From positions 604,269-668,268 of the forward strand of contig NZ_JANAVO010000002.1 in NCBI RefSeq assembly GCF_024213555.1: 64,000 bases of DNA, given 5' to 3'. Source of the stretch: Allokutzneria sp. A3M-2-11 16 (lineage in GTDB: Bacteria; Actinomycetota; Actinomycetes; Mycobacteriales; Pseudonocardiaceae). Numbering within the stretch: position 1 is the first letter of the stretch; each line of letters opens with the position of its first letter. Both the position numbers and the translations under genes were made by a program. Below are positions 5,407-62,757 of the stretch, piece after piece. Under the pieces are notes generated by a model. That model worked only from the letters and a program-made list of their open reading frames with translations. It was not told the DNA's origin and ran no database searches.

Positions 5407-5514
5407 GTCTTCAAGTACCCCCAACCCCGCCCCACGGCGTCGCCAACCGCAGCACACCCCGAGGTTGGGGGCGGTTAGCGACCGCTGGCGGAGGGGTTCG
5501 TAGGACTTGAAGAC
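5407..5514. repeat. GTCTTCAAG palindromic element, copy A (short, 108 bp)
   Basis: It begins GTCTTCAAGTACC and ends GGACTTGAAGAC, giving inverted termini. Inside, CAACCCCGCC and GGCGGAGGGGTT continue the pairing, with a central GCCAACCGC/GCGGTTAGCGA pair. It lies between the convergent lhr and acdS genes. Four related copies occur in this window (11987, 12095, 20059, 62639). All share the right flank GAC-NNN-CCAACC. It probably acts as a bidirectional transcript-end structure or is a non-autonomous mobile repeat. Confidence 0.8.
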
Positions 5515-5527
5515 GCCCCAACCACGG

Positions 5528-6586
5528 TCAGGGGAAGAGGGCGGAGTAGGCGTTGAGTGCGGGTTGGCCGCCCAGGTGGGCGTAGAGGACGGTGGAGTCC
5601 TTGGGGATCTCGCCGGTGCTGACCAGGTCGATCAGGCCCGCCATCGACTTCCCCTCGTACACCGGGTCGGTGATCATGCCTTCGAGGCGGGCGGCGACGC
5701 GCATCGCGGCCAGGGTGCGCTCGTCGGCGATGCCGTAGGTGCCCGCGTGGTAGCGGTCGTCCAGCTCCACCGGCGGCAGGTCCGGGACGCCGAGCAGGCT
5801 CGCGGTGCCCGCGGCGATCCGGGCGATCTGGTCCTCGGTGGCCGCGGGCGCGGCCGACGCGTCGATGCCGATGATCTGCCGGGGCGGGCCGTCGAGCGCC
5901 GCGAACCCCGCGATCATGCCCGCCTGTGTGGAGCCGGTGACCGAGCAGACGACGATGGTGTCGAAGAAGACCCCCAGCTGCCGCTCCTGCTCGACCACTT
6001 CGGCCGCCCAGCCCGCGAAGCCCATACCGCCGAGCCGGTGGTCGGAGGCGCCCGCCGGGATCGCGTACGGCTTGCCGCCCTCGGCGCGCACGTCGGCGAG
6101 CGCCGATTCCCAGCTGGGCCGCAGGCCGATGGTGAACTCCGCCTGCACCAACCGGACCTCGGCGCCCATCAGCCTGCTCAGCAGGATGTTGCCGACCCGG
6201 TCGTAGACGGAGTCCGGCCACTCCACCCAGCTCTCCTGCACCAGCACGCAGCGCAGTCCCGCGCGGGCCGCGGCGGCGGCGACCTGGCGGGTGTGGTTGG
6301 ACTGCACTCCGCCGATGGAGACGAGCGTGTCGCAGCCCTCGGTGAGCGCGTCGGCGAGCAGGTACTCCAGTTTGCGGGTCTTGTTGCCGCCGTAGGCCAA
6401 ACCGGAGTTGCAGTCCTCGCGTTTCGCCCAGACTCGCGCCCCACCGAGGTGATCGCTGAGCCGCTCCAGTTCGTGCACCGGCGACGGCCCGAACAGCAAC
6501 GGGAACCGCGGTAGTCCCGTCAGCCCCTCGCGCAGCTGCCCGACCGCAAAGCCCGACGACGGCCCCGACAAAGACCCAGACGACAT
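5528..6586 (-). CDS. acdS: 1-aminocyclopropane-1-carboxylate deaminase
   Basis: A 352-residue fold-type II PLP enzyme that would break ACC, the ethylene precursor, into 2-oxobutanoate and ammonia. The PLP lysine is K69 in YGGNKTRK, and [12 protein letters not shown] is the usual cofactor/substrate loop. Two features separate AcdS from D-cysteine desulfhydrase: Y-E-G-K-S (Glu where desulfhydrases have Ser) and Leu in YAHLGG. Both favour true ACC deaminase. Start ATG 6586 has a strong GAAGGAGG site seven bases upstream; the longer frame to 6676 is not needed. No Lrp-type regulator lies beside it. Expected cytosolic; of use in plant-associated life. Confidence 0.9.
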
Positions 6587-6614
6587 GGCCCCTCCTTCAT
6601 CCGGCCTCAGCAAA

Positions 6615-7403
6615 CTACGCGGTCGCCAGGCGGAGCAGGGCCCAGAGTTGCGCTGTGGCATGGCGGTCGCCAACAAGGCGGACGGTGTGGTCGGGCGCGC
6701 GGCCCCACAGCCAGCGGTACACCGCGGAGGGCGCCCCGGTGATGATCGCGTCCACGTTGGTCAGGCCGGAGGGCACGGCGCGGAACACCGAGATGCCCGC
6801 CGGTTCCACTCGCACGTACCAGGCGTGGTCGGCGGTGCGGACGCCGAGCGCGCAGCGGTGCGGGCCGGTGATGCCCCTGGTGCGCAGGCGGTGCCCGAGC
6901 CACAGCAGCAGCACCTCGTCGACCCCGTCCAGCGCCACGTCCTCGGGGACGTCGAGCACCGCCCCGCCGAGCGCGGCCTGCACGTCGATGCGGTGCACCG
7001 TGCTCTCGTGCGCCATCCGCCGCCGCCAGAACCCGTAGGTCTGGTCCTGCGGCCACCACGTGGGGCAGGGCTCCTCCGGCTCGTGCTCGCCGAGCTTCAC
7101 GACCAGGTCGACGAGCCCGGCGCGCAGGTCCTCGCGCAGGTCCGCCGGGCCCTGCCGGTCTTCCGGTTCCGGGCCGCGTTGTTCGGGCACCGGCCACGCG
7201 GGCACGCCGCGGTCGCGCATCCAGGCCAGCGCGCCGCGATAGCCGTCACCGGCTTGGCGCAGCACCGCGCCGACCGTGAGCCCCGGGCGCCCGGGGACCG
7301 GGAGGTCCATGGACTGGGGAGGCGCCGAGTTCGCGAGCGTCTCGCCCTCGGTCACCAGGACGTCGAGCAGGCGGCCGTGATCGATGAGAGCCGCCCCGCT
7401 CAC
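6615..7403 (-). CDS. maleylpyruvate isomerase/DinB-family mycothiol-type protein
   Basis: A 262-residue four-helix-bundle protein of the MDMPI type. The N-terminal half has the helical bundle with a metal-binding histidine region ([13 protein letters not shown]). The C-terminal part ends with the usual [25 protein letters not shown] module seen in actinobacterial MDMPI-C domains. Family members use mycothiol or a bound metal, but most, including this one, have no assigned substrate. GTG 7403 overlaps the stop of the upstream HEPN gene by GTGA, so the two are translationally coupled. The frame is open far upstream, but only this start fits the coupling. Confidence 0.78.
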
Positions 7404-7852
7404 CGCCCCGCCCCGTGCACGATCTGCCGCACCAGCAACAGGAACTCCCCGGTGCGCCGGACGAGGTCGTCGGCGGCCGCGGCGTCGACCAGCCTGCTGG
7501 CACCCGCCTGGACCGCGGCGCGGCGCGAGGAGCCCGCAGCGAAGAACGCGGCCCATTCGCGCAGCTCGGGCGCGTTGCGGACGAGCAGTTCCCACACGCT
7601 GGCCGGGCGGGCCCGCGCGCGGTGCGGACGGCCGCGCATGGCGAGGACGGCGGCCGACGCGCGGATCGCGGCGAGGTAGGCCACCGAGTAGCGGTCGGCG
7701 GGCGTGGTGGAACCCTCCGCCTCGCGCAGGGTGCGCACCGCGTGCGCCAGCAGCGAGACGGCCTGGGGGTTGCGCGGCGCGGGGACCGCGGCGCGCGCGG
7801 TGTTGTCGGGGCTGCGGGGAGACGGGACCGGGAAGTGCAGAGGAACGGACAT
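7400..7852 (-). CDS. SAV_6107-type HEPN-domain protein
   Basis: A 150-residue all-helical protein with the pattern of the actinobacterial SAV_6107 family: SLLAHAVRTLREA, then RYSVAYLAAIRASAAVLAMRGRP, and SVWELLVRNAPELREWAAFFA. HEPN folds are often RNases in toxin or stress systems, but the R-x4-6-H catalytic motif is not obvious here, so activity is uncertain. An AGGAGG site seven bases upstream fixes the ATG. It is the first gene of a two-gene unit with the MDMPI protein. A perfect LexA-type box lies 178 bp upstream (8030-8045), and a 9-bp hairpin sits in the intervening leader. Confidence 0.75.
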   Translation of the reverse strand: MSVPLHFPVPSPRSPDNTARAAVPAPRNPQAVSLLAHAVRTLREAEGSTTPADRYSVAYLAAIRASAAVLAMRGRPHRARARPASVWELLVRNAPELREWAAFFAAGSSRRAAVQAGASRLVDAAAADDLVRRTGEFLLLVRQIVHGAGR

Positions 7853-7916
7853 CTCGGCCTCCTGGGGACGTCAGTGAACGACTCCGTACGCCGAGGGGAA
7901 GCCGGCGGTGCCGGGC

Positions 7917-7941
7917 GGCGGAGTGCTTCCCCCACTCCGCC
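7917..7941. other. hairpin in leader of the HEPN-MDMPI unit
   Basis: Perfect 9-bp arms GGCGGAGTG and CACTCCGCC are separated by a seven-base loop. The element lies between the LexA box and the HEPN start. It could be an attenuator or a terminator for something transcribed from the box. The rest of 7853-8220 (368 bp) holds no convincing gene; a 119-codon minus-strand frame there has the composition of non-coding GC-rich DNA. Confidence 0.5.
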
Positions 7942-8029
7942 ACCCGGCGTGTCCGGACGGGCGCCGAGGACCAACCGGAGTGCCGACCCACGACCCCGTC
8001 GGGTCAACCAGCAGGTCACTCCAGCTGTC

Positions 8030-8045
8030 TCGAACACTCGTTCGA
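8030..8045. promoter_or_regulatory. LexA (SOS) box, perfect consensus
   Basis: TCGAACACTCGTTCGA matches the actinobacterial LexA operator TCGAAC-N4-GTTCGA at all 12 fixed positions. It sits midway in the divergent gap between the HEPN gene (start 7852) and ybaK (start 8221). Either or both could be damage-induced. Confidence 0.75.
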
Positions 8046-8220
8046 ACAACACCAACGATACCCGGGGGGTCTGACAGTCTCAAGCGACCTGCGTCGAGGA
8101 CCCCGGGGAATGCCAGAGGGCCACCCCGGTTCGGCCGCGCCCGAAACGGGATCGGGCCCGATCCGGACAGATCAGGGGGCGGGACGGGCTCCACCGGCCT
8201 GGGCATGGTCTGATGGGCCC

Positions 8221-8709
8221 GTGAGCTCACTGGACCACCCGGGCATCCAGAAGGTCGCCACGGCGCTCGCCGAGGCCGGATTCGACTCCGCCGCGACCGG
8301 GATCCGTGTCCTGGACGATGCCGCCCGCACGGCCGCGCAGGCCGCCGCCGCGCTCGGCATCGAGGTGGGGGCGATCGCGAACAGCCTGGTCTTCACGGCG
8401 GACGGGGCCCCGTTGCTGGTGCTCACTTCCGGCGCACACCGGGCCGACACCGCGCTGCTCGCCGAACTGGCGGGGGTGGCCGAGGTGGGCAGGGCGGCGC
8501 CCGAGTTCGTCCGCGAGCACACCGGCCAGGCCATCGGCGGCGTCGCCCCGATCGGCCACCCGGCCCCCATCCGGACCCTGGTGGACCGTGCACTGGCCGG
8601 TTACCCGGAGATCTGGGCGGCGGCCGGTCACCCGAAGGCGGTCTTCCCCACCACCTTCACCGACCTGGTGGCCCTCACCGGCGGCACCCCCGTGGAGGTG
8701 ACCCGGTGA
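8221..8709 (+). CDS. ybaK: YbaK/ProX-type aminoacyl-tRNA deacylase domain protein
   Basis: A 162-residue single-domain protein of the YbaK/EbsC fold. It would act in trans to hydrolyse mischarged aminoacyl-tRNA (typically Cys- or Ala-tRNAPro). Signature strands are NSLVFTADGAPLLVLTSGAHRAD, AAPEFVREHTGQAIGGVAPIGHP (the G-G-V-x-P loop) and VDRALAGYPEIWAAAGHPKAVF. GTG 8221 gives the normal N-terminus (SSLDHPGIQKVATAL). Its TGA overlaps the GTG of the next gene by four bases. A LexA box lies 175 bp upstream. Confidence 0.88.
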   Translation: MSSLDHPGIQKVATALAEAGFDSAATGIRVLDDAARTAAQAAAALGIEVGAIANSLVFTADGAPLLVLTSGAHRADTALLAELAGVAEVGRAAPEFVREHTGQAIGGVAPIGHPAPIRTLVDRALAGYPEIWAAAGHPKAVFPTTFTDLVALTGGTPVEVTR

Positions 8710-9299
8710 CCAAGGCGTCCCGCCCGGAACAGCAACGGCTGATCGAGTTCTCCGCCGCGGACCTGCGGCCCCGGCTGGACGAGGCGCTGGCGCTCTACGT
8801 CGCCGCCATGGACTACCCGCCCAACACGGTGCGCCAGCGGGCCCCGATGTGGTTGGCGCACATGATGCGCGAGGGCTGGCGCTGCGTTGTCGCACTGGAC
8901 GAGGACGAGGCGCTCGCCGGGATCTCCTACGGCTACCGCGGCGCGATCGGCCAGTGGTGGCACGAGCAGGTGCGCCGCGGCCTCAACGCGCGGACGAACT
9001 CCGATCAGTCCTTTGTGGACGAATGGATGCGGGACTACTTCGAGCTGACCGAGCTGCACGTGCGCCCAGACGCGCAGGGCCGCGGGCTCGGCGAGGCGCT
9101 GCTGCGGCGGCTGGCGGGCATGGTCGACTCGGAGCGCGTGCTGCTGTCCACTCCCGAAGGCCCGACGCGCGCGTGGAAGCTCTACCGGCGCCTCGGTTTC
9201 CAGGACGTGCTGCGGCACTACCAGTTCACCGGCGACCCGCGGCCGTTCGCGGTGCTCGGCCGCGTGCTGCCGATCGAGGAGACCCCGGTCAGCGGTTGA
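8706..9299 (+). CDS. GNAT-family N-acetyltransferase
   Basis: A 197-residue acetyltransferase. The acetyl-CoA loop is VRPDAQGRGLGEALLRRL (Q/R-x-x-G-x-G/A motif A), followed by LSTPEGPTRAWKLYRRLGFQDV, a classical motif B. The unusually long region between beta-2 and motif A (GYRGAIGQWWHEQVRRGL) resembles actinobacterial GNATs of unknown substrate. It is coupled to ybaK by a GTGA overlap, suggesting a shared translation-related context. Its 3' end overlaps the convergent PI-PLC-like gene by 11 bp. Confidence 0.82.
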   Translation: MTKASRPEQQRLIEFSAADLRPRLDEALALYVAAMDYPPNTVRQRAPMWLAHMMREGWRCVVALDEDEALAGISYGYRGAIGQWWHEQVRRGLNARTNSDQSFVDEWMRDYFELTELHVRPDAQGRGLGEALLRRLAGMVDSERVLLSTPEGPTRAWKLYRRLGFQDVLRHYQFTGDPRPFAVLGRVLPIEETPVSG

Positions 9300-10167
9300 G
9301 GTCGGCGACCACACTGGCGGGGCGCGTGCCCGACGTGGGCTGCTCGTAGAAGTCGACGGAGACGAAGTTCGGCTTGCGCCCGGCGGCCGGGGCGCACGTG
9401 TCCCGCACCCGCTTCGCCAGCTTGTCGCCGTTGTCCGCGCGGGCGGCGAAATCCATTGGCACGTCTCGGAAGTGGTTCATCACGAACAGCCGCTTGAAGT
9501 TCGGCTCCTGCTTGTTCAACGGCACGTCCGACCAACGGCTGACGCATTCCAGCTTGTCGCCCAGCGGCCCGAGGCTCCAGTAGTTCTCGACCGTGTAGTC
9601 CTTGCCGTAGAAGACACCCATCGACTCGCGGCCGGAGGCGCTGGAGAGCATCAGCAGTCTCTTGTTCTGCGCCACCATGTCGCTCAGCTTCGGCCAACCT
9701 TGTTCGCGCACTTTCCAGGCGTCAGGCCGAAAAATCAGGTCGTTGAGCCCAGGAACGCTACTGAGGGCGCTGCCGAGCGCTGGCGCGTCCGCGTAGTCCT
9801 CAAGCAACAGGGTGACGACCTCGCCGCGGTTCTCGTTGAGGAAGTCCACGATCGTCCGCAGCGATCCGGCGAACGTCTGCCGCGGAGTGCCGTAGTGCAA
9901 CCCCGGCACCGGACCGCACTCACGGCCCTCGTTGTGGCACAGGTGCACCTCGTTGCCGTACATGTGCAAGTCGAGCATCAGTCCGCGCACGCCATCGGCG
10001 AGCTGCTTGCGCAGGCTCTGTCCCTGGTTCGGCGGCCACCACTTCGCGTCACCCGTACTGACGTGCGCGTTGTGCGACGTCAGATACGTCAGGTCGGCGA
10101 GCGTCTTCTCCGCCGGGACCGGGAGCGCGACGAGGACAGCGGCCAGAACAAGGCGCAACGCGGACAT
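9289..10167 (-). CDS. secreted phosphatidylinositol-specific phospholipase C-like phosphodiesterase
   Basis: A 292-residue protein with an N-terminal signal sequence (about residues 1-20, hydrophobic LVLAAVLVALPVP). The rest has the PI-PLC X-domain pattern: YLTSHNAHV (first catalytic His), GVRGLMLDLHMY, and EVHLCHNEGREC (second His), then FLNENRGEVVTLLLEDY. It would be exported and cleave a phosphodiester in a lipid head group or similar substrate; the calcium or Arg variant cannot be told. The start ATG follows AAGGAGGG, but that ribosome site is buried in a long hairpin (10168-10210), suggesting translational control. Confidence 0.78.
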   Translation of the reverse strand: MSALRLVLAAVLVALPVPAEKTLADLTYLTSHNAHVSTGDAKWWPPNQGQSLRKQLADGVRGLMLDLHMYGNEVHLCHNEGRECGPVPGLHYGTPRQTFAGSLRTIVDFLNENRGEVVTLLLEDYADAPALGSALSSVPGLNDLIFRPDAWKVREQGWPKLSDMVAQNKRLLMLSSASGRESMGVFYGKDYTVENYWSLGPLGDKLECVSRWSDVPLNKQEPNFKRLFVMNHFRDVPMDFAARADNGDKLAKRVRDTCAPAAGRKPNFVSVDFYEQPTSGTRPASVVADLNR

Positions 10168-10210
10168 ACACCCTCCTTGACGTGAATTAGTCTCACATCA
10201 AGGAGGGTGT
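10168..10210 (-). promoter_or_regulatory. long hairpin enclosing the ribosome-binding site of the PI-PLC-like gene
   Basis: The arms are 10168-10185 and 10193-10210: 18 bp with one mismatch and a seven-base loop. Read on the minus strand, the second arm contains AAGGAGGG immediately before the ATG at 10167. The element also lies just 3' of the DUF885 stop codon at 10230. It could end DUF885 transcripts or hide the ribosome site from read-through mRNA. No U-run follows, so a simple intrinsic terminator is less likely. Confidence 0.7.
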
Positions 10211-11986: not shown

Positions 11987-12105
11987 GTCTTCAAGACCAG
12001 CAAACCCCGTCCGCAGATGTCGTCAACCGCCGCAAACCCCGACGGTCACGCAGGGTTTGCCATCGTTGGCGACCGCCGCAGCCGGGGTTCGGCGGTCTTC
12101 AAGAC
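11987..12105. repeat. GTCTTCAAG palindromic element, copy B (119 bp)
   Basis: Bounded by GTCTTCAAGAC at both ends. The inside pairs CCGCCGCAAACCCCG with CAGGGTTTGC, and ends with GACCGCCGCAGCCGGGGTTC. The right boundary 11-mer is shared with copy C, making a tandem pair. Unlike the other copies it lies between divergent genes (DUF885 and lppM). Together B and C fill most of the 365-bp gap 11913-12277. Confidence 0.75.
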
Positions 12106-12203
12106 ACACCAACCACGCAACACTCCCGGCAGAACCACGACGATCACGCCGGGTTTGCTGCAGTTTGCGACCGCTGCGGCGGGGGTGCGGTGGTCTTGAA
12201 GAC
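12095..12203. repeat. GTCTTCAAG palindromic element, copy C (109 bp)
   Basis: It starts at the shared GTCTTCAAGAC (12095-12105) and ends with GTCTTGAAGAC (12193-12203). Internal CGGGTTTGCTG and GTTTGCGACCGCTGCGG match copy B. The right flank GCTCCAACC fits the family rule (GAC-NNN-CCAACC). The size is near that of copy A. Confidence 0.72.
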
Positions 12204-20058: not shown

Positions 20059-20177
20059 GTCTTCAAGTACACCGAACCCCCGCCCCAGCTGTCCGTAACC
20101 GCCTCATACCTCCCGGTCCTCCGGAGGTATGAGGCGGTTTTCGGTGATCGTCGGCGGGGTTGGGGGTACTTGAAGAC
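20059..20177. repeat. GTCTTCAAG palindromic element, copy D (119 bp)
   Basis: The ends are GTCTTCAAGTAC and GTACTTGAAGAC. The inner 15-bp arms CCGCCTCATACCTCC and GGAGGTATGAGGCGG are perfect. The outer arms pair through AACCCCCGCC/GGCGGGGTTGGGG. The whole element can fold into one long hairpin. It starts 16 bp after the pknL stop, between convergent pknL and aroG. Confidence 0.85.
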
Positions 20178-42336: not shown

Positions 42337-43608
42337 GTGGAGACGGTCTTCCGGGTCCTCGGGCCGATGGAGATCGACCGGGACGGGGAGCCGGTGCGGC
42401 TGCGCCCGGCCAAGCAGCGCACCCTGCTGGCCGTGCTGCTCCTGCGGGCCAACGTGGTGGTGCCGGTCGCCACGCTGGTGGACTGCCTCTGGGAGGACGC
42501 GCCGCCCGCCGGGGCGAAGGGCACGATCCAGGCGTACGTGATGCGGCTGCGGCAGGCCATCGGTGACCAGGACGCGCGGCTGATCAAGACCCGCCCGGAC
42601 GGCTACGCGCTGGAGACCGCCGTCGAGAACATCGACCTGCAGCGCTTCCACGTTCTCGTGACGCACGCACAGGCGTCGTGCGAGCCCGAGGAACGGGCCG
42701 CGGCACTGCGCGAGGCGGTGGGGCTCTGGCGCGGTCCGCTGCTCGCCGACGTCGGCGGCGCCGCGCTCCGCGAGCGGATTCCGGACATCCCGATCCACGC
42801 CGAGGCGCGGCTGCAGGCACTGGAGCAGTACTTCGACGCCGAACTCCAGCTCGGCAGGCACAACGAGCTGCTCGACGAGCTGCGCGCGACGACGGCCGAA
42901 CACCCGCTCCGGGAACGGTTCTGGGGTCAGCTGATGGTCGCCCTGTACCGCGCGCACCGGCAGCGGGAGGCGCTCGCCGCCTACGCCGAGGTGACCCGGC
43001 GGCTCGCCGACGAGCTGGGCATCGACACCGGCGCGGAGATCCGCGCGCTGCACGAGCGCGTCCGGGACGGCGATCTGCCCCTCACCCCCCAGCCACCGCA
43101 GGTCCCGGCGGTGGTGCCCGCGCAGCTGCCCGCCGACCCCGGCGACCTGCCGGAGCGGGCGGAGCTGGTCGACGAGATCACCGAGCTGCTGGTCAACCCG
43201 GACGACCGGCCGACCGTGCCGCTGGTGGTGCTGACCGGCTGCCCGGACGGCGGTCGCGCGGAGCTCGCCGCGCGCATCGCCCACCGGGCTCGCCCCGCCT
43301 TCCCCGGCGGCCAGCTGCACGCCACGCTGAACACCGACACCGCGAACGTCCTGATCGGGTTCCTGCACGCGCTCGGCGTCCGCGAGGAGCAGGTTCCGCC
43401 GGAGGCCGAGGAACGCACCGCGCTCTACCGCTCCCTGCTGGCCAAGCGCCGCGTCCTCGTGGTGCTGGACTCGGTGGCCGGGCCCGACCAGGTCCGGCCC
43501 CTGCTGCCGGGGGACTCCGGCTGCGCGGTGCTGGTGACCAGCGAGAACGACCTCCGCGGGCTGACCGCTCTGCAGGGTGCGCGCCAGTTCCGGGTGGGCC
43601 CGACATGA
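42337..43608 (+). CDS. AfsR/SARP-like regulator 1, truncated with degenerate P-loop
   Basis: A 423-residue protein. Winged helix (residues 5-95, FRVLGPMEIDRDGEPVRLRPAKQRTLLAVLLLRA) and BTAD (about 100-245) are intact. The NB-ARC starts but its P-loop is GCPDGGRAE, lacking the Gly-Lys-Thr of regulator 3 (GPPGVGKTA). The chain stops inside NB-ARC at a point aligning with LRV of the intact paralogue; no ARC2 or TPR remains. It may work as a small SARP that activates by DNA binding alone. The stop overlaps the ATG of the pseudogene by ATGA. Start GTG 42337. Confidence 0.8.
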   Translation: METVFRVLGPMEIDRDGEPVRLRPAKQRTLLAVLLLRANVVVPVATLVDCLWEDAPPAGAKGTIQAYVMRLRQAIGDQDARLIKTRPDGYALETAVENIDLQRFHVLVTHAQASCEPEERAAALREAVGLWRGPLLADVGGAALRERIPDIPIHAEARLQALEQYFDAELQLGRHNELLDELRATTAEHPLRERFWGQLMVALYRAHRQREALAAYAEVTRRLADELGIDTGAEIRALHERVRDGDLPLTPQPPQVPAVVPAQLPADPGDLPERAELVDEITELLVNPDDRPTVPLVVLTGCPDGGRAELAARIAHRARPAFPGGQLHATLNTDTANVLIGFLHALGVREEQVPPEAEERTALYRSLLAKRRVLVVLDSVAGPDQVRPLLPGDSGCAVLVTSENDLRGLTALQGARQFRVGPT

Positions 43609-44365
43609 GCGAGGAGCAGGAGTTCCGCATCCTCGGCCGCCTCATGGTCACCCGCGGCGGTGAGGAGGTGGCCATCCGCGATGAAGCACCGAGTGCTGCT
43701 GGCCTGCCTGCTCATCGCGCCGAACACGGTGGTCCCGGTGCGACGGCTGATCGACCGGATCTGGGGTGACGCACCGCCGGACGACGCGCGGGCGGTGGTG
43801 CACACCTACGTCAGCAGGGTGCGCGCCGTTCTCGGCTGCCCCGAGCTCATCGAGACCCTGCCGGAGGGCTACCGCATCCACGTCCGGGAACAGCTTCGCA
43901 CGACACGCGCCGCGTCCGGCTGGAGGAGCTCACTCGCGGTTCCGCGGAGGCGCTGATGGGCTCGCTCCAGTGCGAGCGCTCCGCCGCGCTCACCGAGATC
44001 ATCGAGCTGTGCGGCGGTTTCCCGCTGGCGCTGCGCATCGCCGCACACGTGCGCCACGGCGGCGCCGAGTCCTTTGTGGACAGACTCAGGTGCGGCTTGT
44101 CGGCGCTGAGCATCGACGGCGACAGCGCGGCGGATCTGCGCTCGCCTTCGACCTGTCCTACAACGGTCTCTCCGTCGAGGCGCAGCATGCGTTCATCGCC
44201 CTGGCGCACGCCGACTTCGGTGACTTCTCCGTGCAGGACGCGGACGCGGTCGCCGCCGCCGAGCTGGACCAGCTCGCCGACGCGAACCTGATCCGGAACA
44301 CCGCCCCGGACCGCTTCCACTTCCCCGCCCTGCTGCGCCGGTACGCGCTAACGTTCAGCCAGTGA
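43605..44365 (+). pseudogene. AfsR/SARP-like regulator 2, decayed
   Basis: Pieces in different frames align with the intact paralogue at 44362. The first 25 codons (EQEFRILGRLMVTRGGEEVAI) are in one frame; a frameshift near 43680 leads to KHRVLLACLLIAPNTVVPV...LPEGYRIHVREQ. Sequence then jumps from this DNA-binding part to the NB-ARC tail (RLEELTRGSAEALM...LCGGFPLALRIAAHVRHG), so BTAD and most of NB-ARC are deleted. A further frameshift near 44143 leads to SYNGLSVEAQHAFIALAHAD...LLRRYALTFSQ. At least three lesions. It ends in the start codon of regulator 3. Confidence 0.8.
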
Positions 44366-47172
44366 GTCGGGGAATCGAGTTCCGCATCCTGGGCCCGTTC
44401 GACATCACCCGCGACGGCGAGCCCGTGCGGGTGGCGGCCACGAAGCACCGGGTGCTGCTGGCCCGCTTGCTCGTGGACGCGAACCGGGTGGTGCCGGTCG
44501 ACCGGCTGATCGAATGCCTGTGGGACAACGATCCGCCCGCGACGGCGCGCGCGGTCGTGCACACCTACGTCAGCAGGCTCCGGCAGGCGCTCGGTTCGGC
44601 GGAGCTGATCGAGACGCTGCCCAACGGCTACCGCGCAACCGTCCGGAATGGTCAGCTCGATCTGCTCCGGTTCCGCGAACTCGTGCGGCTCAGCCGACAG
44701 GCCCGCGATCCCGCCGCCGAGTCCGCGCTGCTCCACGAAGCCGGAACCCTGTGGCGGGGCCCCGCGCTGGCGACCGTGCCTTCGGACGCGCTGCAACGGG
44801 AAGCGGCCCAGCTCGACAACGAGGAGCTGGCCGCCGCCGACCGCCGCGTCGAACTCGACCTGGCACTCGGACGCCACCGTGGTCTCGTGCCGGAGCTGCG
44901 CGCGATGGTGGCGCGCCGCCCGTTCAGTGAGCGGCTCCTCGGCCAGCTGATGCTCGCCCTCCACCGCGGCGGCCGCCAAGCCGAAGCGCTGACCAGCTAC
45001 CAGGAGTTCCGCGCGGAGTTGGGCGCCGAGCCCGGCACCGAGCTTCGCGAGCTGCACCAGGCGATCCTGCGCGGCCAGGACGAGCCACCCGCTCTGTCCA
45101 CTTCGGACTGGACCCCGGTTTCCCAGCTACCGCCGCACGTCGGCCACTTCGTCGGCCGCTCCGACGAGCTGAGCACGATCTCCGCGCTGCTCAGGCACCG
45201 GGGCTCGCTCTCCGCTCCGCTCGTCGTCCTCTCCGGCCCGCCCGGTGTCGGCAAGACCGCGCTCGCCGTCCACGCCGCGCACGGCCTGAAGGACGATTTC
45301 CCCGACGGCCAGCTCTACGTGAACCTGCGCGGCTACTCCCCCGAGCCCGCGCTCACCGCCGCGCAGGTGCTCCCCCGGTTCCTCCGCGCGCTCGGCGTAC
45401 CTCCCGAGCAGGTGCCGCTCACCGAGGCGGAACAGGCTTCGCTGTACCGCACCCTGTTGTCCGGTCGCCGCGTCCTCGTCGTGCTGGACAACGCTTCCGC
45501 CGTCGACCAGGTCCGCGTCCTCGCGCCCAGTTCCTCGACCTGCGCCACCCTCGTCACCAGCCGCAACAACCTCGGCGAACTCGTCGCGCTCAACGGCGCC
45601 CAGGTCCTGCGCGTCGACGTGCTCGCCCAGGACTCCGCGTTGCTCCTGCTGGAGCGGATCATCGGCCCCGTTGCCTCTCCCGAGGCGGCCTCCGCCCTCG
45701 TCGACCTGTGCGGCGCCCTCCCGCTCGCCCTCCGCATCGCCGCCGCCAACATCGCCTTCTCCTCGCACGACATCGAGTCCTATGTGGACGATCTCCGCGG
45801 TGACCGGTTCTCCGCGCTCGCCATCGAAGGCGACCGCGAGGCCGCCGTGCAGGCCGCCTTCGACCTCTCCTACGCCACCCTTCCCCTTGAGGCGCAACGC
45901 GTCTTCCGCTTGCTCAGCCTCGTTCCCGGCACCGACTTCACCGCCCACACCGCCGCCGCGCTAGGCGAACTCGTCGTCCCCACTGCGGAGGCCGTTCTCC
46001 AGCAGCTGGCCACCGTCAACCTGCTCCAGGCTCATCTTCCCGGCCGCTACCAGTTCCACGACCTCATCCGCGCTTACGCCTCCACGCTGGCTTCTACGCA
46101 CGACACCACCGAAGCGCCTTTCATCCGGCTCCTCGACTACTACGCAGGCACCGCGTACCGCGCGTCCGCCGTCCTCTACCCGGACGCCATGGGCATTGAG
46201 AAAGAACGCGATTTCGACAGCGCGACGACAGAGCTGTTCGAGGACGCTCCGACCGCGCTCGGCTGGTACCGGCAGGAGGTCGAGAACATCGCCCCAGCCA
46301 TGACCAGCGCACAGGAGTCCGACTATCCACTGTGGCATCTCATCGTCCCCTTGGTGACCGCGCACACCGAGCGCGGGAACCTCACCGGGGCCCTCGCGTT
46401 GGCGCGCAAGTCCCTCGAACTCAGCGGGCAACTCGGGATCGTCCCGCTCGAAATCACCTCCTTGGCCAACATCTCGTTCATCCTCTTTCTCGTCGGCCAT
46501 CTCCACGAGTCGGCCGAGAACGCGAACTTGGCGATCGCCACCGCCCAGCGCACAAGCGCCCAGCACGCCGAAGTGATGAGCCACGTGACCCTGGGAAACT
46601 GCCACCGCGCGCTCAACCAGACCGATCTCGCGATCGCCCACGCCACCATCGCGCTGGAGAACGCGGTCGAAGCCGGATACGACTGGATCGAGGCGGCGGC
46701 ACTGCTCGCACTGGGCGAGGCATACCTGGATGCCGGGCGGATGGAGGAAAGCCTGCACTGCCTCACCACGGCCTTGAAGCTGTACGAGGGGTTCTCCTGC
46801 GCGACCCAACTCATCGCGCCGTCCTACAACCTCGCCCGTTTCTGGCGAGCGTCGGGCGAACCGGCTCGGGCGAGAGACCTCGCCAATGAGGCACACGCCC
46901 TGGCCCGCGGTTCCCACCACCTCCTCATGGACCCCGAGATCTCTTCATTGCTGGCGCTGCTCGACCTGGACACCGGTGACATCGCAGGCGCACGTCAGCA
47001 CATCGACACCGCCGCCGAGGCCTGCGACCGCATGGGCAGGCGCCTCGCTCGTGCCCACGCCCACCACGTGTCCGGCCTCGTCGCCCAGGCGGCCGGAGAC
47101 AACGACACAGCCCTGGCCGAGTGGCACAGCGCGAATTCGATCCACACCGCACTTCGTGAGCTGAAGGGTTGA
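44362..47172 (+). CDS. AfsR-like transcriptional regulator (wHTH-BTAD-NB-ARC-TPR)
   Basis: A 936-residue complete regulator. OmpR-like winged helix (5-95), BTAD (100-245), NB-ARC with intact P-loop SGPPGVGKTALA (about 289-300) and Walker B LVVLDNA, the GLPL-like LCGALPLALRI, then TPR-like helices from about 640. Such STAND proteins bind DNA upon ATP-driven oligomerisation and often switch on a nearby secondary-metabolite or P450 gene. GTG 44362 overlaps the pseudogene stop. Its end abuts the convergent metallopeptidase gene with no spacer. The lower region uses more TCC/CTC codons than its neighbours. Confidence 0.93.
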   Translation: MSRGIEFRILGPFDITRDGEPVRVAATKHRVLLARLLVDANRVVPVDRLIECLWDNDPPATARAVVHTYVSRLRQALGSAELIETLPNGYRATVRNGQLDLLRFRELVRLSRQARDPAAESALLHEAGTLWRGPALATVPSDALQREAAQLDNEELAAADRRVELDLALGRHRGLVPELRAMVARRPFSERLLGQLMLALHRGGRQAEALTSYQEFRAELGAEPGTELRELHQAILRGQDEPPALSTSDWTPVSQLPPHVGHFVGRSDELSTISALLRHRGSLSAPLVVLSGPPGVGKTALAVHAAHGLKDDFPDGQLYVNLRGYSPEPALTAAQVLPRFLRALGVPPEQVPLTEAEQASLYRTLLSGRRVLVVLDNASAVDQVRVLAPSSSTCATLVTSRNNLGELVALNGAQVLRVDVLAQDSALLLLERIIGPVASPEAASALVDLCGALPLALRIAAANIAFSSHDIESYVDDLRGDRFSALAIEGDREAAVQAAFDLSYATLPLEAQRVFRLLSLVPGTDFTAHTAAALGELVVPTAEAVLQQLATVNLLQAHLPGRYQFHDLIRAYASTLASTHDTTEAPFIRLLDYYAGTAYRASAVLYPDAMGIEKERDFDSATTELFEDAPTALGWYRQEVENIAPAMTSAQESDYPLWHLIVPLVTAHTERGNLTGALALARKSLELSGQLGIVPLEITSLANISFILFLVGHLHESAENANLAIATAQRTSAQHAEVMSHVTLGNCHRALNQTDLAIAHATIALENAVEAGYDWIEAAALLALGEAYLDAGRMEESLHCLTTALKLYEGFSCATQLIAPSYNLARFWRASGEPARARDLANEAHALARGSHHLLMDPEISSLLALLDLDTGDIAGARQHIDTAAEACDRMGRRLARAHAHHVSGLVAQAAGDNDTALAEWHSANSIHTALRELKG

Positions 47173-48621: not shown

Positions 48622-49671
48622 TCAGCCCATCCGGCGAACGCCGGAGAGCCCGCTCTGCACCTTGTCGAACTTCAGCGGCTGACCGGTGGTCGAGGCGTGG
48701 AACTGCATGCCGTTGCCCGCGTAGATGGCGACGTGGTGCACCCTGTTCCCGAAGAAGAGCAGGTCACCCGGCTTCCACGCGTCCCGGTTGTTCAGCGGGA
48801 CGGCAGAGCCGACCCGGGCCTGCGCGGCACTGGAGCGCGGCAGGCGGACGCCGACCTTGCCGAAGGCCCAGGAGGTCAGGCCGGAGCAGTCGTAGGAGTC
48901 CGGACCCTCAGCGCCCCAGACGTAGGGCTTGCCCTTCTGGGTCACCGCGATCTTCAGCGCCGACGCGCCGATACCGCCGTCCGGCAGGCCGGACAGGTCG
49001 ATGTCCAGACCGGCGTCCTGGAGCTTCTTCTTCTCCGCGTTGCTCAGGCGGTCCAGCGCCTGCTTGGCCTTCTCCTGCTTCTGGGCCGCTTCCTTCTTGC
49101 GGTTCTCCAGATCGCCCTTGATCCGGGCGGACTCGGCGGCGGCCGCCGCTGCCTTCGCCTTGGCCTCGTCGGCCAGCCGGGCGGCGGTCTTGGCCTGGTT
49201 GATCGTCGCGTTGAGCTTGTCCAGCGAGTCCTTGCTCTCGCTCGTGATCAGGTCGACCACGGAGAGCTTGTCGAGGAACTCGTTCGGGGACTTGCTCAGC
49301 AGCAGGGCGCTGATGTGGTTGACCCGGGTGCCCTGGAAGTTGGAGCTGGCCAGCTGGTCGACGCGACCGCGCAGCTCACCTTCCTGCTTCTTCGCCAGGT
49401 CACCGGCGGCGTTGGCCTTCACCAGCTCTTCGTTGGCCTTGCCGACCTCGGCTTCCTTCGCCTTGAGGTCGTCGTTGGCCTTGTGCAGTTCCTCGGTGAG
49501 CTTCTCGGCCTCGTCGCTGAGCGCCTTGAGCTGCTTCAGCGCCTCGGAGGCGTTGGACGGAGTGTCCGGGTCGGCGATAGCCGGGCTCGCCGGAACCATG
49601 CTCACGGCCATTGCGACAGCGCCGGCGGTCAGTGCCCCGCGCATAGTGCGCTTCAGTCGGTTCGACGCCAC
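48622..49671 (-). CDS. NlpC/P60 peptidoglycan endopeptidase with coiled coil (RipC-like)
   Basis: A 349-residue secreted cell-wall hydrolase. Signal peptide (RGALTAGAVAMAVSMVPASPAIA), long coiled coil (about 40-205, KLTEELHKANDDLKAKEAE and LADEAKAKAAAAAAESARIKG), then an NlpC/P60 domain with Cys in YDCSGLTSWAFGK, His in VHHVAIYAGNG and a third polar residue in MQFHAS. It cuts the D-Glu-mDAP bond. Location matches M. tuberculosis Rv2190c (RipC). A c-di-AMP riboswitch lies in its leader. GTG 49671 follows AAGGAG at 12 bases; ATG 49692 is the alternative. Confidence 0.92.
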   Translation of the reverse strand: MASNRLKRTMRGALTAGAVAMAVSMVPASPAIADPDTPSNASEALKQLKALSDEAEKLTEELHKANDDLKAKEAEVGKANEELVKANAAGDLAKKQEGELRGRVDQLASSNFQGTRVNHISALLLSKSPNEFLDKLSVVDLITSESKDSLDKLNATINQAKTAARLADEAKAKAAAAAAESARIKGDLENRKKEAAQKQEKAKQALDRLSNAEKKKLQDAGLDIDLSGLPDGGIGASALKIAVTQKGKPYVWGAEGPDSYDCSGLTSWAFGKVGVRLPRSSAAQARVGSAVPLNNRDAWKPGDLLFFGNRVHHVAIYAGNGMQFHASTTGQPLKFDKVQSGLSGVRRMG

Positions 49672-49699
49672 GTCGACGCATTGCTCCTTCATGCTCCGA

Positions 49700-49825
49700 C
49701 CGCCTACCGGGTTAGCTGACGGGTTCGGGCCGGAAGCTGCCCTACCGGCACTGGGCCGGATTCACCCCAACTCACTGGGTCCCCGGTTCGGCACCCCGAC
49801 AGGCCGATTCGACGGTGATCCCGCG
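49700..49825 (-). promoter_or_regulatory. cyclic di-AMP (ydaO-type) riboswitch
   Basis: The minus-strand leader of the RipC-like gene contains the conserved blocks of the actinobacterial ydaO aptamer in order: GTTGGGGTGAATCCG, GGTAGGGCAGC, GCCCGAACCCGTCAGCTAAC and CCGGTAGGCGG. These are followed within 10 bases by the ribosome-site region. In actinomycetes this class sits before NlpC/P60 and Rpf genes and shuts them down when c-di-AMP is high. Boundaries are approximate. The rest of 49672-49982 shows a possible TAACCT -10 near 49867-49875 and no gene. Confidence 0.85.
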
Positions 49826-58052: not shown

Positions 58053-58248
58053 CGGTGGGTGTCCTCCCGACAGTGCGATCCCGACGACCGTCGATGCTAT
58101 AGCGCGGCCCCGGCACCTCGGTGGTTGTGTCCGCGGAAGGAAAACGGAGTGCTCACCCGGAGTGCACCGGGCCTGACGGACGGTGTGCTCCCGGCCACCC
58201 CCTCGCGCGCGGCGTGGACCCGCCCCTGCATGCGCCATCCCTGCAAGA

Positions 58249-58254
58249 CATAAT
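58249..58254 (+). promoter_or_regulatory. putative -10 element of ctaE
   Basis: CATAAT lies seven bases before GTG 58262, the position expected for a leaderless actinobacterial mRNA. No ribosome site precedes the GTG. No clear -35 was found. Confidence 0.45.
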
Positions 58255-58261
58255 GCGTCGC

Positions 58262-58861
58262 GTGACAACGGCTGCGCCCTCAATCGGCCAACGGGTGCAC
58301 TCGCTGAACCGTCCCAACATGGTCAGCGTGGGCACGATCGTCTGGCTCTCCAGCGAACTCATGTTCTTCGCCGGTCTCTTCGCCATGTTCTTCACGGTGA
58401 AGGCCCAGAACGAGGGCGCGTGGCCTCCCGCGCCCACCCATCTGAACCTGCCCTACGCCCTGTTCTTCACCGTGATCCTGGTGGCGTCGTCCTTCACGTG
58501 TCAGTGGGGCGTCTTCAAGGCGGAGCAGGGCGACGTGTTCGGGCTGCGGCTCTGGTACACGATCACCCTGATCATGGGCGCGATCTTCGTCGGCGGCCAG
58601 GTCGGCGAGTACATCACCCTGGTCAACGACGGGACGTCCATCTCGTCCTCGGCCTACGGCACGGTGTTCTACCTGACCACCGGCTTCCACGGTCTGCACG
58701 TGATCGGCGGGCTGATCGCCTTCGTGTTCCTGATCTGGCGCACGAAGCTGAGCAAGTTCACCCCGGCGCAGGCGACGGCGGCGATCGTCGTGTCCTACTA
58801 CTGGCACTTCGTCGACATCGTCTGGGTCGGCCTCTTCGCCTGCATCTACCTCATTCCCTGA
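58262..58861 (+). CDS. ctaE: cytochrome c oxidase subunit III
   Basis: A 199-residue membrane protein with five hydrophobic segments: [68 protein letters not shown] and [24 protein letters not shown]. The last two carry the family's H-H-x-x-E/W-H-F-x-D-x-V-W signature. It is part of the aa3 oxidase that joins the bcc complex as a supercomplex. GTG 58262 ([19 protein letters not shown]) was chosen by comparison with other actinobacterial CtaE; ATG 58253 adds three residues. Confidence 0.95.
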
Positions 58862-58942
58862 CGTGCGTGCCCACCCCCCGGGCGGCTTCGCCCGGTACGC
58901 ACGCAACGAGCCCCGAACTCGACAGCAAGGGTTGCCGCAGAC

Positions 58943-59788
58943 ATGACCACCAGGAAAGACGCCGCCTCCGCGGAAGCGGGAGGACGTGGCGCAGAACGGA
59001 ACCGCAGGCCGCGCACCAAGCTGCGGCGTCGGCTCTCCGGTCTGCTGGCACTGGGTGTCGCTCTCGTCGGAGCGGGCGCGCTCTACGCGGGCGCGGTGAC
59101 CCAGCCGCACAAGGCGCAGGCCGCCGAGGATCCCGCTCTGGTCCGCAAGGGCGAGCAGATCTACAACAACGCCTGCATCACCTGCCACGGCGCCAACCTG
59201 CAGGGTGTCGAGGACCGGGGACCGAGCCTGATCGGCGTCGGCGAGGCGGCCGTGTACTTCCAGGTCTCCTCCGGCCGCATGCCGATGGTGCGCCAGGAGG
59301 CCCAGGCCGGGCGCAAGCCGGTCAAGTACACGCCGAAGGAGATCGACGCGCTGGGCGCGTTCATCCAGTTCACCGCGGGCGGCCCGGCCAAGCCGCACGA
59401 GTCGGGCGCGCAGCTGCGCGGCGACAACCCGGCCCGCGGCGGCGAGCTGTTCCGGCTCAACTGCGCCTCCTGCCACAACTTCACCGGTCGTGGCGGCGCG
59501 CTGTCCTCGGGCAAGTTCGCCCCGCACCTGGACGGCGTGACCGAGGAGCAGGTCTACACGGCGATGCTCACCGGGCCGCAGAACATGCCGAAGTTCTCCG
59601 ACCGGCAGCTCTCGCCGGACGAGAAGAAGGACATCATCGCCTACGTCAAGTCGGTGACCGACGGCAACAACAACCCCGGCGGCAACCCCCTCGGCGGCTT
59701 CGGCCCCGGCACGGAGGGTCTGATCGCCTGGATCATCGGCCTCGCCTCGCTGATCGGCGTGACCGTGTGGATGGGAAGCAGGGCATGA
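58943..59788 (+). CDS. qcrC: di-haem cytochrome c of the bcc complex
   Basis: A 281-residue membrane-anchored dihaem protein. N-terminal helix ([21 protein letters not shown]) and C-terminal helix ([19 protein letters not shown]) anchor it; two CxxCH sites are C78-x-x-C81-H82 and C174-x-x-C177-H178. Two haems on one subunit let the bcc complex hand electrons to aa3 oxidase without a soluble cytochrome c, as in all actinobacteria. Met ligands lie in SSGRMPMV and GPQNMPKF. Its stop overlaps the qcrA ATG by ATGA. The 81-bp gap from ctaE shows no terminator. Confidence 0.96.
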
Positions 59789-60903
59789 GCGAGCAGCAGC
59801 ACACGCCCGGCGAGGCGGAACTCGCCGAGATGAGCCGGGACGAGCTCGTCGCGGCCGGTCTTGAGGCCGACCACGTCGTCATCGCCAAGCGGGTCGAGCG
59901 GTTCCCCGTTCCCGGCACCCGCGCGGAGAAGCGGGCCGTCCGCGGGGTGGCCGCCTGGTTCGCCGTCACGGCGATCTCCGGGCTGGCGTTCCTCGCCGTG
60001 TACGTGCTCTGGCCGAACGAGTACCGCACGCCGGACACCCCCGGCAGCTTCTGGTACGACCTGTACACCCCGATGCTGGGCCTCACCCTCGGCCTGAGCG
60101 TGTTCGCGCTCGGCATCGGCGTCATCGCCTACGCGAAGAAGCTGCTGCCGGACGAGACCGCGGTGCAGCAGCGGCACGCCGAGGGCTCCACCGAGTTCGA
60201 CAAGCAGACCACCGCGGCGATCCTGGCCGACTCGGGCGCCACCAGCGGCCTGGCCCGGCGCAAGCTGATCACCCGCAGCGCGGGCGCGGCCGCCGGTGTC
60301 TTCGGCCTGGGCGTCGGCGTGTTCGCGCTCGGCGGCCTGGTGAAGAACCCGTGGGGCAAGGGCGACAAGTCCGACCTGCTGGTCACCGGCTGGGCCACGG
60401 AGAACGGCGAGAAGGTCTTCCTGCGCCGCGACGTCGGCGACCCGCTCAAGGTCTCGCTGGTGCGGCCGGAGGACCTGGACGCGGGTGGCTTCGAGACGGT
60501 GTTCCCGTTCAAGAAGTCCGAGGAGCACGACGAGCACGCGCTGATCAAGGGCGTCCGCCGCTCCGACAGCCCAGTGATGCTGATCCGCCTGCGCCCCGGC
60601 CAGAAGGTGGTCAAGCGCAAGGGCCAGGAGGACTTCAACTACGGCGACTACTACGCCTACTCCAAGATCTGCACCCACCTGGGCTGCCCGACCTCGCTGT
60701 TCGAGCAGCAGACCGGCCGGTTGCTCTGCCCGTGCCACCAGTCGCAGTTCGACGTCTTCACCTACGCCAAGCCGATCTTCGGCCCCGCCACCCGGTCGCT
60801 GCCGCAGCTGCCGATCACGGTGGACCCCGAGACCGGTTACCTGATCGCGCGCGGCGACTTCATCGAGCCGATCGGCCCCGGCTACTGGGAGCGTAAGTCA
60901 TGA
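59785..60903 (+). CDS. qcrA: Rieske iron-sulfur protein of the bcc complex
   Basis: A 372-residue actinobacterial Rieske subunit with three membrane helices (about 52-72, 90-115, 165-190), unlike the single helix of mitochondria. The 2Fe-2S ligands are in C296-T-H298-L-G-C and C315-P-C317-H318. [14 protein letters not shown] before helix three has the twin-Arg-like pattern (RRK) used for Tat-assisted insertion. The globular domain receives electrons from menaquinol. Start ATG overlaps qcrC, and its TGA overlaps qcrB. Confidence 0.96.
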
Positions 60904-62573
60904 GTTCCATCACCACGCCGACCAAGTCGGCAAGCGCGGTGAGCAAGGCGGCGGCCGGTGCCGCGAAGTGGGCCGACGACCGGTACCACCCCGCGTCCGG
61001 GCTGCGCCGCCAGATCAGCAAGGTCTTCCCGACCCACTGGTCGTTCATGCTCGGCGAGATCGCGCTCTACAGCTTCATCATCCTGCTGCTCTCCGGCGTC
61101 TACCTGGCGTTGTTCTTCGACCCCTCGATGCAGGAGGTCCAGTACAACGGCTCGTTCACCAACCTCCAGGGCGTCTGGATGTCCCGCGCGTTCGAGAGCG
61201 CGCTGGACATCTCCTTCGAGGTCCGCGGCGGCCTGTTCGCGCGTCAGGTGCACCACTGGGCGGCGCTGCTGTTCATGGCCGCGATCGTCGCGCACATGCT
61301 CCGGGTGTTCTTCACCGGCGCGTTCCGCAAGCCGCGCGAGGTCAACTGGGTCATCGGCATCCTGCTGTTCGTGCTGGGCATGTTCGAGGGTTTCACCGGC
61401 TACTCGCTGCCCGACGACCTGCTCTCCGGCACCGGCCTGCGGATCGGCTCCGGCATCGTGCTGTCGATCCCGGTGATCGGCACCTGGATCCACTGGGCGC
61501 TCTTCGGCGGGGAGTTCCCCGGCACCGAGATCATCCCGCGCCTCTACACGATCCACATCCTGCTGCTGCCCGGCATCATCCTCGGCCTGGTGGCCGCGCA
61601 CCTGGCGCTGGTCTGGTACCAGAAGCACACCCAGTTCCCGGGTGTCGGCCGCACCGAGAACAACGTGGTCGGCGTGCGCATCATGCCGCTGTTCGCGGCC
61701 AAGGCGGGCGGCTTCTTCGCCGTCACCACCGGTGTGATCGTGATGATGGCGGGCCTGTTCCAGATCAACTCGATCTGGAACTTCGGGCCGTACAACGCCG
61801 CCCAGGTCTCGGCGGGCTCGCAGCCCGACTGGTACATGGCCTGGACCGACGGCATGAGCCGGTTGTGGCCCGCCTGGGAGGTCTACCTCGGCGACTTCAT
61901 GCTGCCCGCGATCTTCTTCCCGCTGGTGCTGGGCATGGGCATTGTGTTCACCCTCGCGGGCGCCTACCCGTGGATCGAGGCCAAGCTCACCAAGGACAAG
62001 GCCCCGCACCACCTGCTGCAGCGCCCGCGCGACACCCCGGTACGCACCTCGCTGGGCATGATGGCGCTGACGTTCTTCATGGTGATGGCGCTGTCCGGGT
62101 TCAACGACCTGATCGCGGACAACTTCAACATCTCGCTGAACGTGATGACCTGGGCCGGCCGCATCCTGACGCTGCTGGCGCCGCCGATCGCCTACTACGC
62201 CACCTACCGCATCTGCATCGGCCTGCAGCGCTCGGACCGCGCGGTGCTGGAGCACGGCGTGGAGACCGGCATCATCAAGCGCCTGCCGCACGGTGAGTTC
62301 ATCGAGATCCACCAGCCGCTCGGCCCGGTGGACGACCACGGTCACCCGATCCCGCTGGAGTACCAGGGCGCGTCGGTGCCGAAGAAGATGAACAAGCTGG
62401 GCTTCGCGGGCGAGCCGGTCCCCGGCAGCCTCCTGCGCCCGGACCCCGCCGAGGAGACCGCGGCGCTGGAGCGGGCCAGGAAGTCGGGCGGGGACGACCT
62501 CAACCCCGCCAACGGCTCCGCTGGTTCCGCCAAGGAGATCACCGCGGGCAAGCCGCAACAGCCCACGGACTGA
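60900..62573 (+). CDS. qcrB: cytochrome b of the bcc complex
   Basis: A 557-residue cytochrome b with eight or nine membrane helices. Recognisable are [20 protein letters not shown] (haem His), [17 protein letters not shown] (Qo region), the [19 protein letters not shown] loop with the PEWY equivalent PDWY, and HPxxx helices. The C-terminal 150 residues are an actinobacterial cytosolic extension. It oxidises menaquinol and reduces quinone at the second site. The ATG overlaps qcrA. A strong terminator and a palindromic repeat follow. Target site of drugs such as Q203 in mycobacteria. Confidence 0.96.
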
Positions 62574-62580
62574 TCGCACG

Positions 62581-62620
62581 AACGAAAGGGCCCCGCCTCC
62601 CGGTGGGGCCCTTTTCGTTG
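62581..62620 (+). terminator. intrinsic terminator of ctaE-qcrCAB
   Basis: AACGAAAGGGCCCC pairs with GGGGCCCTTTTCGTT across a ten-base loop; the 3' arm carries TTTT. It lies eight bases after the qcrB stop. Confidence 0.9.
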
Positions 62621-62638
62621 CCCTACAAGGGTTAGACG

Positions 62639-62757
62639 GTCTTCAAGTACACCCCACCCCCACCCCAGACGTCTCAAACCGCCTCATACCCACGGCTACC
62701 TCCGAGGTATGGGGCGGTTTGCGATCGCTGTGGGTGGGGTTCGGGGTACTTGAAGAC
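62639..62757. repeat. GTCTTCAAG palindromic element, copy E (119 bp)
   Basis: It starts GTCTTCAAGTAC and ends GTACTTGAAGAC. The inner CCGCCTCATACC and GGTATGGGGCGG arms match those of copy D. It lies between the convergent qcrB and small membrane-protein genes, right after the qcrB terminator. The right flank is CGTCCAACC. Confidence 0.85.

Follow-up and report, generated by a model that had tools for sequence, protein, structure and literature searches.

A stretch of 64,000 nucleotides from the genome of Allokutzneria sp. A3M-2-11 16 (contig NZ_JANAVO010000002.1, positions 604,269 to 668,268; the window in what follows) carries five copies of a long intergenic palindromic element. In the same genome, the family of these copies counts at least 217 inverted pairs. 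The preliminary description of the window had listed the five copies with their coordinates and lengths, all of which proved correct; each is a paired element to which no strand is assigned. Copy A (5407..5514, 108 bp) lies between the convergent genes of a Lhr-type helicase (+) and a PALP enzyme (-). Copy B (11987..12105, 119 bp) and copy C (12095..12203, 109 bp) form a tandem between divergent genes and share one end, the 11-mer GTCTTCAAGAC, which is the right end of copy B. Copy D (20059..20177, 119 bp) has a PASTA kinase gene (+) on one side and a class II DAHP synthase gene (-) on the other; copy E (62639..62757, 119 bp) is flanked by a cytochrome b gene (+) and by a - strand gene. Our own gene calls thus returned the described context, convergent at A, D and E and divergent at B/C.

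Every copy starts with GTCTTCAAG and finishes with CTTGAAGAC (CTTCAAGAC in copy B), and the right flank GAC-NNN-CCAACC follows all five, so that the inverted termini, the flank and the shared 11-mer of the tandem are as first described. GGTT stands 5-8 bases outside the left end in the window copies, except in copy D, which has GGTG. In copy E, the left terminal 29-bp palindrome (no strand assigned) occupies 62630..62658 with its centre at 62644, its family consensus being GGTTnGnnnGTCTTCAAGtaCnnCnAACC (profile of 110 arms). The inner hairpin of the same copy, likewise unstranded, spans 62674..62722 (columns 36-54 with 66-84, loop 55-65) and is the part that covaries in the family. The RNA hairpins predicted for the five window copies are strong (z -5.0 to -11.0). 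Rfam at gathering thresholds returned no family for the repeat in the window, the only match being a c-di-AMP riboswitch.

The family was counted in the genome that contains the window (G000, 8.81 Mb, 43 contigs). The pair pattern GTCTTCAAGNNCN{75,105}CTTGAAGAC (96-126 bp) gave 217 forward and 219 reverse matches and the reversed control gave 0 and 0, which excludes a chance origin; the family extends far beyond the five copies of the window, and its termini are conserved. The arm pattern alone matched 260 + 259 times exactly (519) and 292 + 293 times with up to one mismatch. An anatomy profile was built from 55 pairs, or 110 arms, in the first 1.2 Mb of contig C11 of G000; these pairs have at least one exact end and the other end within one mismatch, and nested matches, together with a single one near C11 298.7 kb, were removed by hand. 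In the outer part, an arm carries GGTT at -8 to -5, G at -3, GTCTTCAAG at 1-9 and mostly TAC at 10-12; further in follow C15, AACCCC at 17-22, TC at 34-35, AACC at 39-42, C44, C47 and AACCCC at 49-54. As GGTT is the mirror image of AACC about base 6, the arm end is a 29-bp palindrome. The half-site of this end recurs 32 bp further inside, the inner part of the arm being the outer part at a 32-bp offset. Among 228 arms examined, the inner AAC was found at 38-40 in 219, and in 207 of these it stands at arm position 39. The element end reads nGTCTTCAAGTAC, with base 0 being C in 49, G in 45, A in 10 and T in 6 of the 110 arms. At base -4 the two ends of a paired element tend to differ (C with G in 63/115), which gives each element a polarity.

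Unpaired single arms also occur. After removal of arms from split pairs and of opposite-strand readings, 17 remained in 1.6 Mb, all with the exact end 9-mer (they were found by end score). Entries outside short pairs, among them arms of odd and split pairs, had a median end score of 40.4 (n = 30), compared with 42.8 for 128 paired arms.

Two further observations were made. In the copy at C11 200037-200190, an unrelated hairpin (start GTACCCAATGTGGC, end GCCACATTGGGTAC) stands where much of the left inner arm would be. A second family of short repeats, with the words CTGAATGAGTCATTCAG, CCTGAACGACTCGTTCAGG and GCCGCATTCGGGGCGTT, also lies in spacers, at times between two arms of the main family; it was seen at C11 123.9-124.2 kb (L030), 298.5-298.7 kb (L038) and 463.8 kb (L047) and at some junctions of two congeners, G001 and G002.

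The end motif is nearly invariant. Over 69 elements, the end 9-mer was off consensus at 1/1242 positions and the 15 conserved columns per arm at 11/2070, compared with a difference of 58% between random pairs of elements at the variable columns, which have soft preferences and are not a clean neutral yardstick. Among 43 nearest-neighbour pairs, limited to those differing at no more than 40% of variable columns, differences were found at 31.5% of variable, 5.0% of conserved inner and 0.8% of conserved outer columns. The 55-pair set was chosen by its ends, and conservation of the 9-mer there is therefore partly built in; the 69 elements were likewise picked by end score, so that an independent count from the inner motif carries more weight. 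A search with the inner motif only, over 1.2 Mb, gave 267 matches above threshold against 35 in the reversed control. An exact 9-mer lies 32 bp outside 122 of these matches and 7-8 of its 9 bases outside another 2; 121 are outer half-sites, and the remaining 22 are a mix of shifted-register arms and probable noise. From the contrast between a near-invariant end and diverged copies, we infer selection on each copy.

Covariation divides the element into two parts. It was scored on 27 copies of 119 bp that align without gaps, out of 40 copies of that length. The inner 19 pairs covary (score 0.224 compared with 0.127 +- 0.016 in shuffles, with 0/500 shuffles as high), and 51 cells of the inner stem are altered on both sides compared with 30.2 +- 4.0 in shuffles, of which 0/500 reach 51. 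In contrast, the outer 35 pairs score 0.087 compared with 0.117 +- 0.011 (498/500 shuffles as high), with 29 cells altered on both sides compared with 43.7 +- 4.6 (499/500 shuffles reach 29). The same split is present on 50 elements and on 115. Because the outer arms lack covariation, they are alike through carrying the same motif and not through a need to pair. A hairpin over the whole length was rejected as the conserved feature, as pairing between the outer arms is rarer than in shuffled ones, and no covariation of mirror positions was found inside the 29-bp end.

A palindromic end that hardly varies, together with outer arms whose pairing is not correlated, would also be expected of a binding array maintained by the host, in which the ends are operators of a chromosome-organising or gyrase-like protein, the arms lie on one face of the helix and mobility is secondary. 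The element lengths appeared to fit such an array. Those of 115 G000 elements cluster at 104-113 and 118-123 bp (distinct-length null p 0.0003, tail p 0.007), with rare values of 130, 133, 142, 144, 152, 154 and 164 bp, and the whole G000 genome contains no exact-ended pair of 114-117 bp. The size classes of the preliminary description are therefore real in G000, but they are not general: among the six exact pairs of the congener G001, which share the arm layout of G000, the lengths are 116, 116, 117, 118, 118 and 118 bp. With three of six pairs at 116-117 bp, the spacing rule does not extend to G001, and founder lengths, which account for the spacing equally well, are the simpler explanation. 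Helical phasing as a rule, which fits the G000 lengths, was rejected on these pairs; p-values calculated for a length period ignore shared descent and were given no weight. In 5/6 of the G001 pairs, the inner AAC is preceded by a word of the GTCTTC or GTCTCC type in one arm and by an GATCATCG-type word in its partner; no GATCATCG arm occurs in the sixth. This asymmetry suggests founders with two unlike arms. The existence of 17 single arms in 1.6 Mb also counts against the binding array.

Placement was examined on 64 pairs of 100-170 bp in 1.6 Mb of G000, with genes taken from a simple caller of our own rather than from annotation. The pairing rule split two known convergent pairs (384103-384220 and 1008406-1008524), and 64 is therefore a slight undercount. 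All but one of the pairs (63/64) lie between called genes: 37 in convergent, 24 in tandem and 2 in divergent spacers, with 1 over a called open reading frame (ORF). The available spacer positions would give 16 % convergent, 55.5 % tandem and 28.5 % divergent. Altogether, 61/64 pairs are behind a gene end, and the median distance to an adjacent 3′ end is 24.5 bp; of the tandem copies, 19/24 are closer to the 3′ end. The 17 single arms are all in convergent or tandem spacers. The suggestion of a repeat dedicated to transcript ends was thus borne out as to place, and placement at gene ends is plain. Place, predicted hairpin and constraint together suggest a role at transcript ends.

Comparison with the congeners showed that most junctions occupied in G000 are empty elsewhere. 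Four-fold distances over 21,900 sites are 0.169 for G000-G002, 0.239 for G000-G001 and 0.251 for G001-G002, which makes G001 the outgroup; aligned DNA is about 92% (G002) and about 89% (G001) identical to G000. We scored 24 junctions in G002, made up of 15/18 pairs and 5/6 single arms supplied plus 4 window junctions; a seventh arm (795077) was left out, and junctions were unscored if they could not be aligned on both flanks or if the sister gap exceeded 700 bp. An arm was found at only 1/24 junctions in G002 and 1/12 in G001, leaving 23/24 and 11/12 without one. The positive junction in G002 is B/C, where a decayed arm is visible in both congeners but only that of G002 scored positive; the positive junction in G001 is that of copy A, with a single arm elsewhere in the spacer. 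The element that G000 carries at the phoH junction was not found there in G001 or G002. Element-free gaps in sister species, which had been proposed as a check, therefore exist at nearly all scored junctions. Given the arm-free junctions and G001 as outgroup, parsimony indicates that most copies were gained in the G000 line. A similarity of inner arms between D and E had been pointed out, and it is real, but the copy closest to D among those compared is c11_486240, 92% alike over the whole length; c11_29256 and L006 are 95% alike. Such whole-copy relatives indicate that copying does occur. Arm-free junctions, the outgroup and two widely separated copies 92% alike together support the proposal of a mobilised element that spreads by copying. 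Operators maintained by the host should scarcely be missing from the same junctions of genomes this similar, and we consider the binding array unlikely.

Beyond these species, the arm pattern with up to one mismatch was found in 9/150 relatives, the own genome included. The carriers within the genus are G000, G001 and G002, and those of other genera are G008, G010, G019 (one match), G062 (two), G073 and G104. In a class-wide draw of 394 genomes, which contains only two others of the family Pseudonocardiaceae, the exact arm occurred in 1/394, namely G000 itself, and in 0/393 others. Lineage-specific variants include GGTTTGnnGGTCTTCAAGACCnnCAAACC in G010, a 59-bp double palindrome in G008 and, for G073 and G104, a GGTTGG...CCAACC type. 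Directly behind the phoH stop codon, G010, G073 and G104 have a CTTCAAG/CTTGAAG palindrome, and G004 has one with a changed core; 24 phoH ends were viewed by eye, those of G000 and, from the site search, G010, G073 and G104, and 20 picked from 100 genomes. Several others, e.g. G001, G002, G008 and G017, have an unrelated hairpin behind phoH (by eye). On the 3′ side of aroG, no such element was seen in 34 genomes viewed by eye, of 80 neighbourhoods. Copy D had no match in plasmid and phage collections, and viral contigs gave one short exact pattern match (locus L259).

This patchy presence, the absence from congeners at most junctions and the inverted ends would suit a miniature element that is purely selfish: an ordinary transposase would move it, it would have no function for the host, and its placement would reflect only the removal of harmful insertions. 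However, the end 9-mer is intact in nearly every arm found by its inner motif while the variable columns differ widely, and the single arms found by end score all keep it as well. The scarcity of divergent insertions and the preference of tandem copies for the 3′ end likewise speak against an element of this kind, and we regard it as quite improbable.

The mobiliser search did not lead to a known enzyme. The preliminary description had suggested looking for a REP-type transposase; however, PF01797 (Y1/RAYT transposase) had 0 matches at E <= 0.001 in 10 genomes with such sites, which include G019 (one one-mismatch arm) and G004 (phoH site seen by eye). The same search found matches in 5/14 control genomes. 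RAYT/Y1 transposase was therefore rejected as the mobiliser. A gene carried between arms was rejected as well, since the longest arm pair found in 1.6 of the 8.8 Mb (C11 926154-926670, L070; two inward-facing arms, 517 bp) encloses only a 114-aa glyoxalase-like ORF and no transposase.

Among known intergenic repeats, ERIC sequences, or intergenic repeat units, are imperfect palindromes of 127 bp, and to our knowledge no transposase is known for them. The G000 family resembles them in being intergenic and of similar length, a comparison made by description and not by sequence, but it belongs to another phylum, repeats its half-site at 32 bp and shares end sites in tandems. ERIC sequences are intergenic repeats of enterobacteria (PMC2759123). 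The GTAG- and CGTC-tagged REP superfamilies, as described in PMC3733652, are palindromic repeats, many of them behind genes, and the CGTC type has no dedicated transposase. The G000 family likewise consists of palindromic repeats behind genes; however, its arms have no GTAG tag, and the base before GTC is C in only 49/110 arms; neither tag fits. That survey describes other phyla, and its main text names neither Actinobacteria nor Streptomyces. The closest design is the REPIN, a REP doublet forming a hairpin with inverted invariant ends, a length-constrained spacer and compensatory changes, which is extragenic and of high copy number and occurs with tandems and singlets (as described in Bertels and Rainey 2011, PMC3116915). 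The G000 family is similar to what is described there in its two inverted near-invariant ends, which form a unit with a hairpin spacer; in its variable spacer with compensatory changes, here in the inner stem only; and in its extragenic location, high copy number, tandems and singlets. It differs in the absence of a Y1/RAYT match from the 10 carrier genomes, in its longer elements (mostly 108-123 bp) whose end is itself a 29-bp palindrome, and in the strong bias to convergent gene ends. Singlets of REPINs are more diverged than doublets; those of the G000 family are not visibly decayed, which may be a further difference. No published description of the repeat was found in a literature search resting mainly on abstract openings.

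Overall, we propose that the copies are probably a lineage-expanded, REPIN-like family of miniature mobile DNA that is moved by a non-Y1 mobiliser and kept as 3′-end elements. The family behaves in the manner of a REPIN, although it is REPIN-like rather than a proven REPIN; its mobility is well supported. In a putative mechanism, a non-Y1 enzyme recognises the palindromic ends and copies the unit, a pair or a single arm, into spacers. Insertions would survive mainly between convergent genes or just past a stop codon, where no promoter is broken. At these places, the inner G+C-rich hairpin may end or protect transcripts arriving from one or both sides. Selection may preserve the end motif in every copy, acting through a protein bound to the palindrome as double-stranded DNA. 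The outer arms might differ because founders had two unlike arms and because of the instability of long perfect palindromes. The inner stem, meanwhile, could stay matched by pairing or by repair across the hairpin.

Several observations weigh against this proposal. No mobiliser was identified for the family. Arm pairs of up to 5 kb, sought in 1.6 of the 8.8 Mb, included no autonomous copy and none of 518 bp or more; a full-length transposon with the same terminal inverted repeats, expected if the elements were MITEs of a DDE transposon, did not appear in that portion. No clear target-site duplication was found: a possible 5-bp CAGCC duplication was seen by eye at one single-arm insertion, and direct repeats over 115 elements are not convincing, since the best diagonal (offset 6) reaches 3.0, mainly through one column pair. 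The junction of copy D in G002 has a remnant-like stretch (score -17.5; control median -31.5, 95% -19.0, maximum -4.6), which hints that some copies are older than the split. Moreover, among the candidate genome places scored (40/310 for E and 40/339 for A), the best relatives reach 83% and 84% similarity, and the copies look too unlike for a simple burst after the G002 split, given 17% four-fold divergence. The arms also look shuffled, as an arm may resemble one from a different element far more than the partner arms of the two resemble each other, and linkage between alignment columns fades within about 10 bases. Arm shuffling, error-prone copying or faster change of spacers could each account for the divergence of the copies.

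The proposed role at transcript ends meets difficulties of its own. Behind the inner stem, the T-run is only 2-3 in 203/228 arms, and by this feature the elements are not textbook terminators. Inspection by eye suggests that one of the genes next to D, to E and to the phoH copy has a separate hairpin already, terminator-like at the class II DAHP synthase gene beside D and at the cytochrome b gene beside E, which speaks against a simple terminator role. These points also count against the possibility that the copies are ordinary intrinsic terminators, alike by convergence in a G+C-rich genome. Strong predicted RNA hairpins and gene-end placement would agree with that possibility, but identical ends, the outward GGTT, the half-site spacing and whole-copy relatedness are needless for a terminator, and the exact arm is absent from the 393 other genomes of the class-wide draw. 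This possibility is disfavoured, and we give it hardly any credence.

In the mobile REPIN-like reading, the same design as that of REPINs, which are described with a Y1 transposase partner, occurs without a Y1 match in ten carrier genomes, which means that either the architecture was reached by a second route or a mobiliser is still hidden. Such a mobiliser is now searchable by comparison of carriers with non-carriers. We tentatively speculate, with some doubt, that the family is an actinobacterial analogue of REPINs that depends on another mobilising enzyme. Its basis, a palindrome centred on CTTCAAG with a further half-site three helical turns towards the interior, would have settled as small units at gene ends in several Pseudonocardiaceae genera and multiplied to hundreds of paired elements in one species. 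A single end-binding protein might both spread the elements and link them to a function for the host, either where transcripts end or in the folding of the chromosome. The phylum of the family does not appear in the main text of the REP survey (PMC3733652). The G000/G002 pair offers filled and empty sites side by side, and insertion and any effect on transcript ends are therefore directly testable; if termination is confirmed, the elements would be native 3′-end elements for actinomycete genetics.

Elsewhere in the window, the c-di-AMP riboswitch (RF00379, 85.4 bits) lies at 49685-49824 (-), at the start of an NlpC/P60 gene at 48622-49692 (-). Additionally, two BTAD regulator genes and a lone Trans_reg_C fragment stand in a row at 42337-47172 (42337-43608, 43681-43956 and 44362-47172). 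This row contains direct repeats of 70-72% and looks like duplicated SARP/AfsR-type regulators, the middle one possibly being a fragment.

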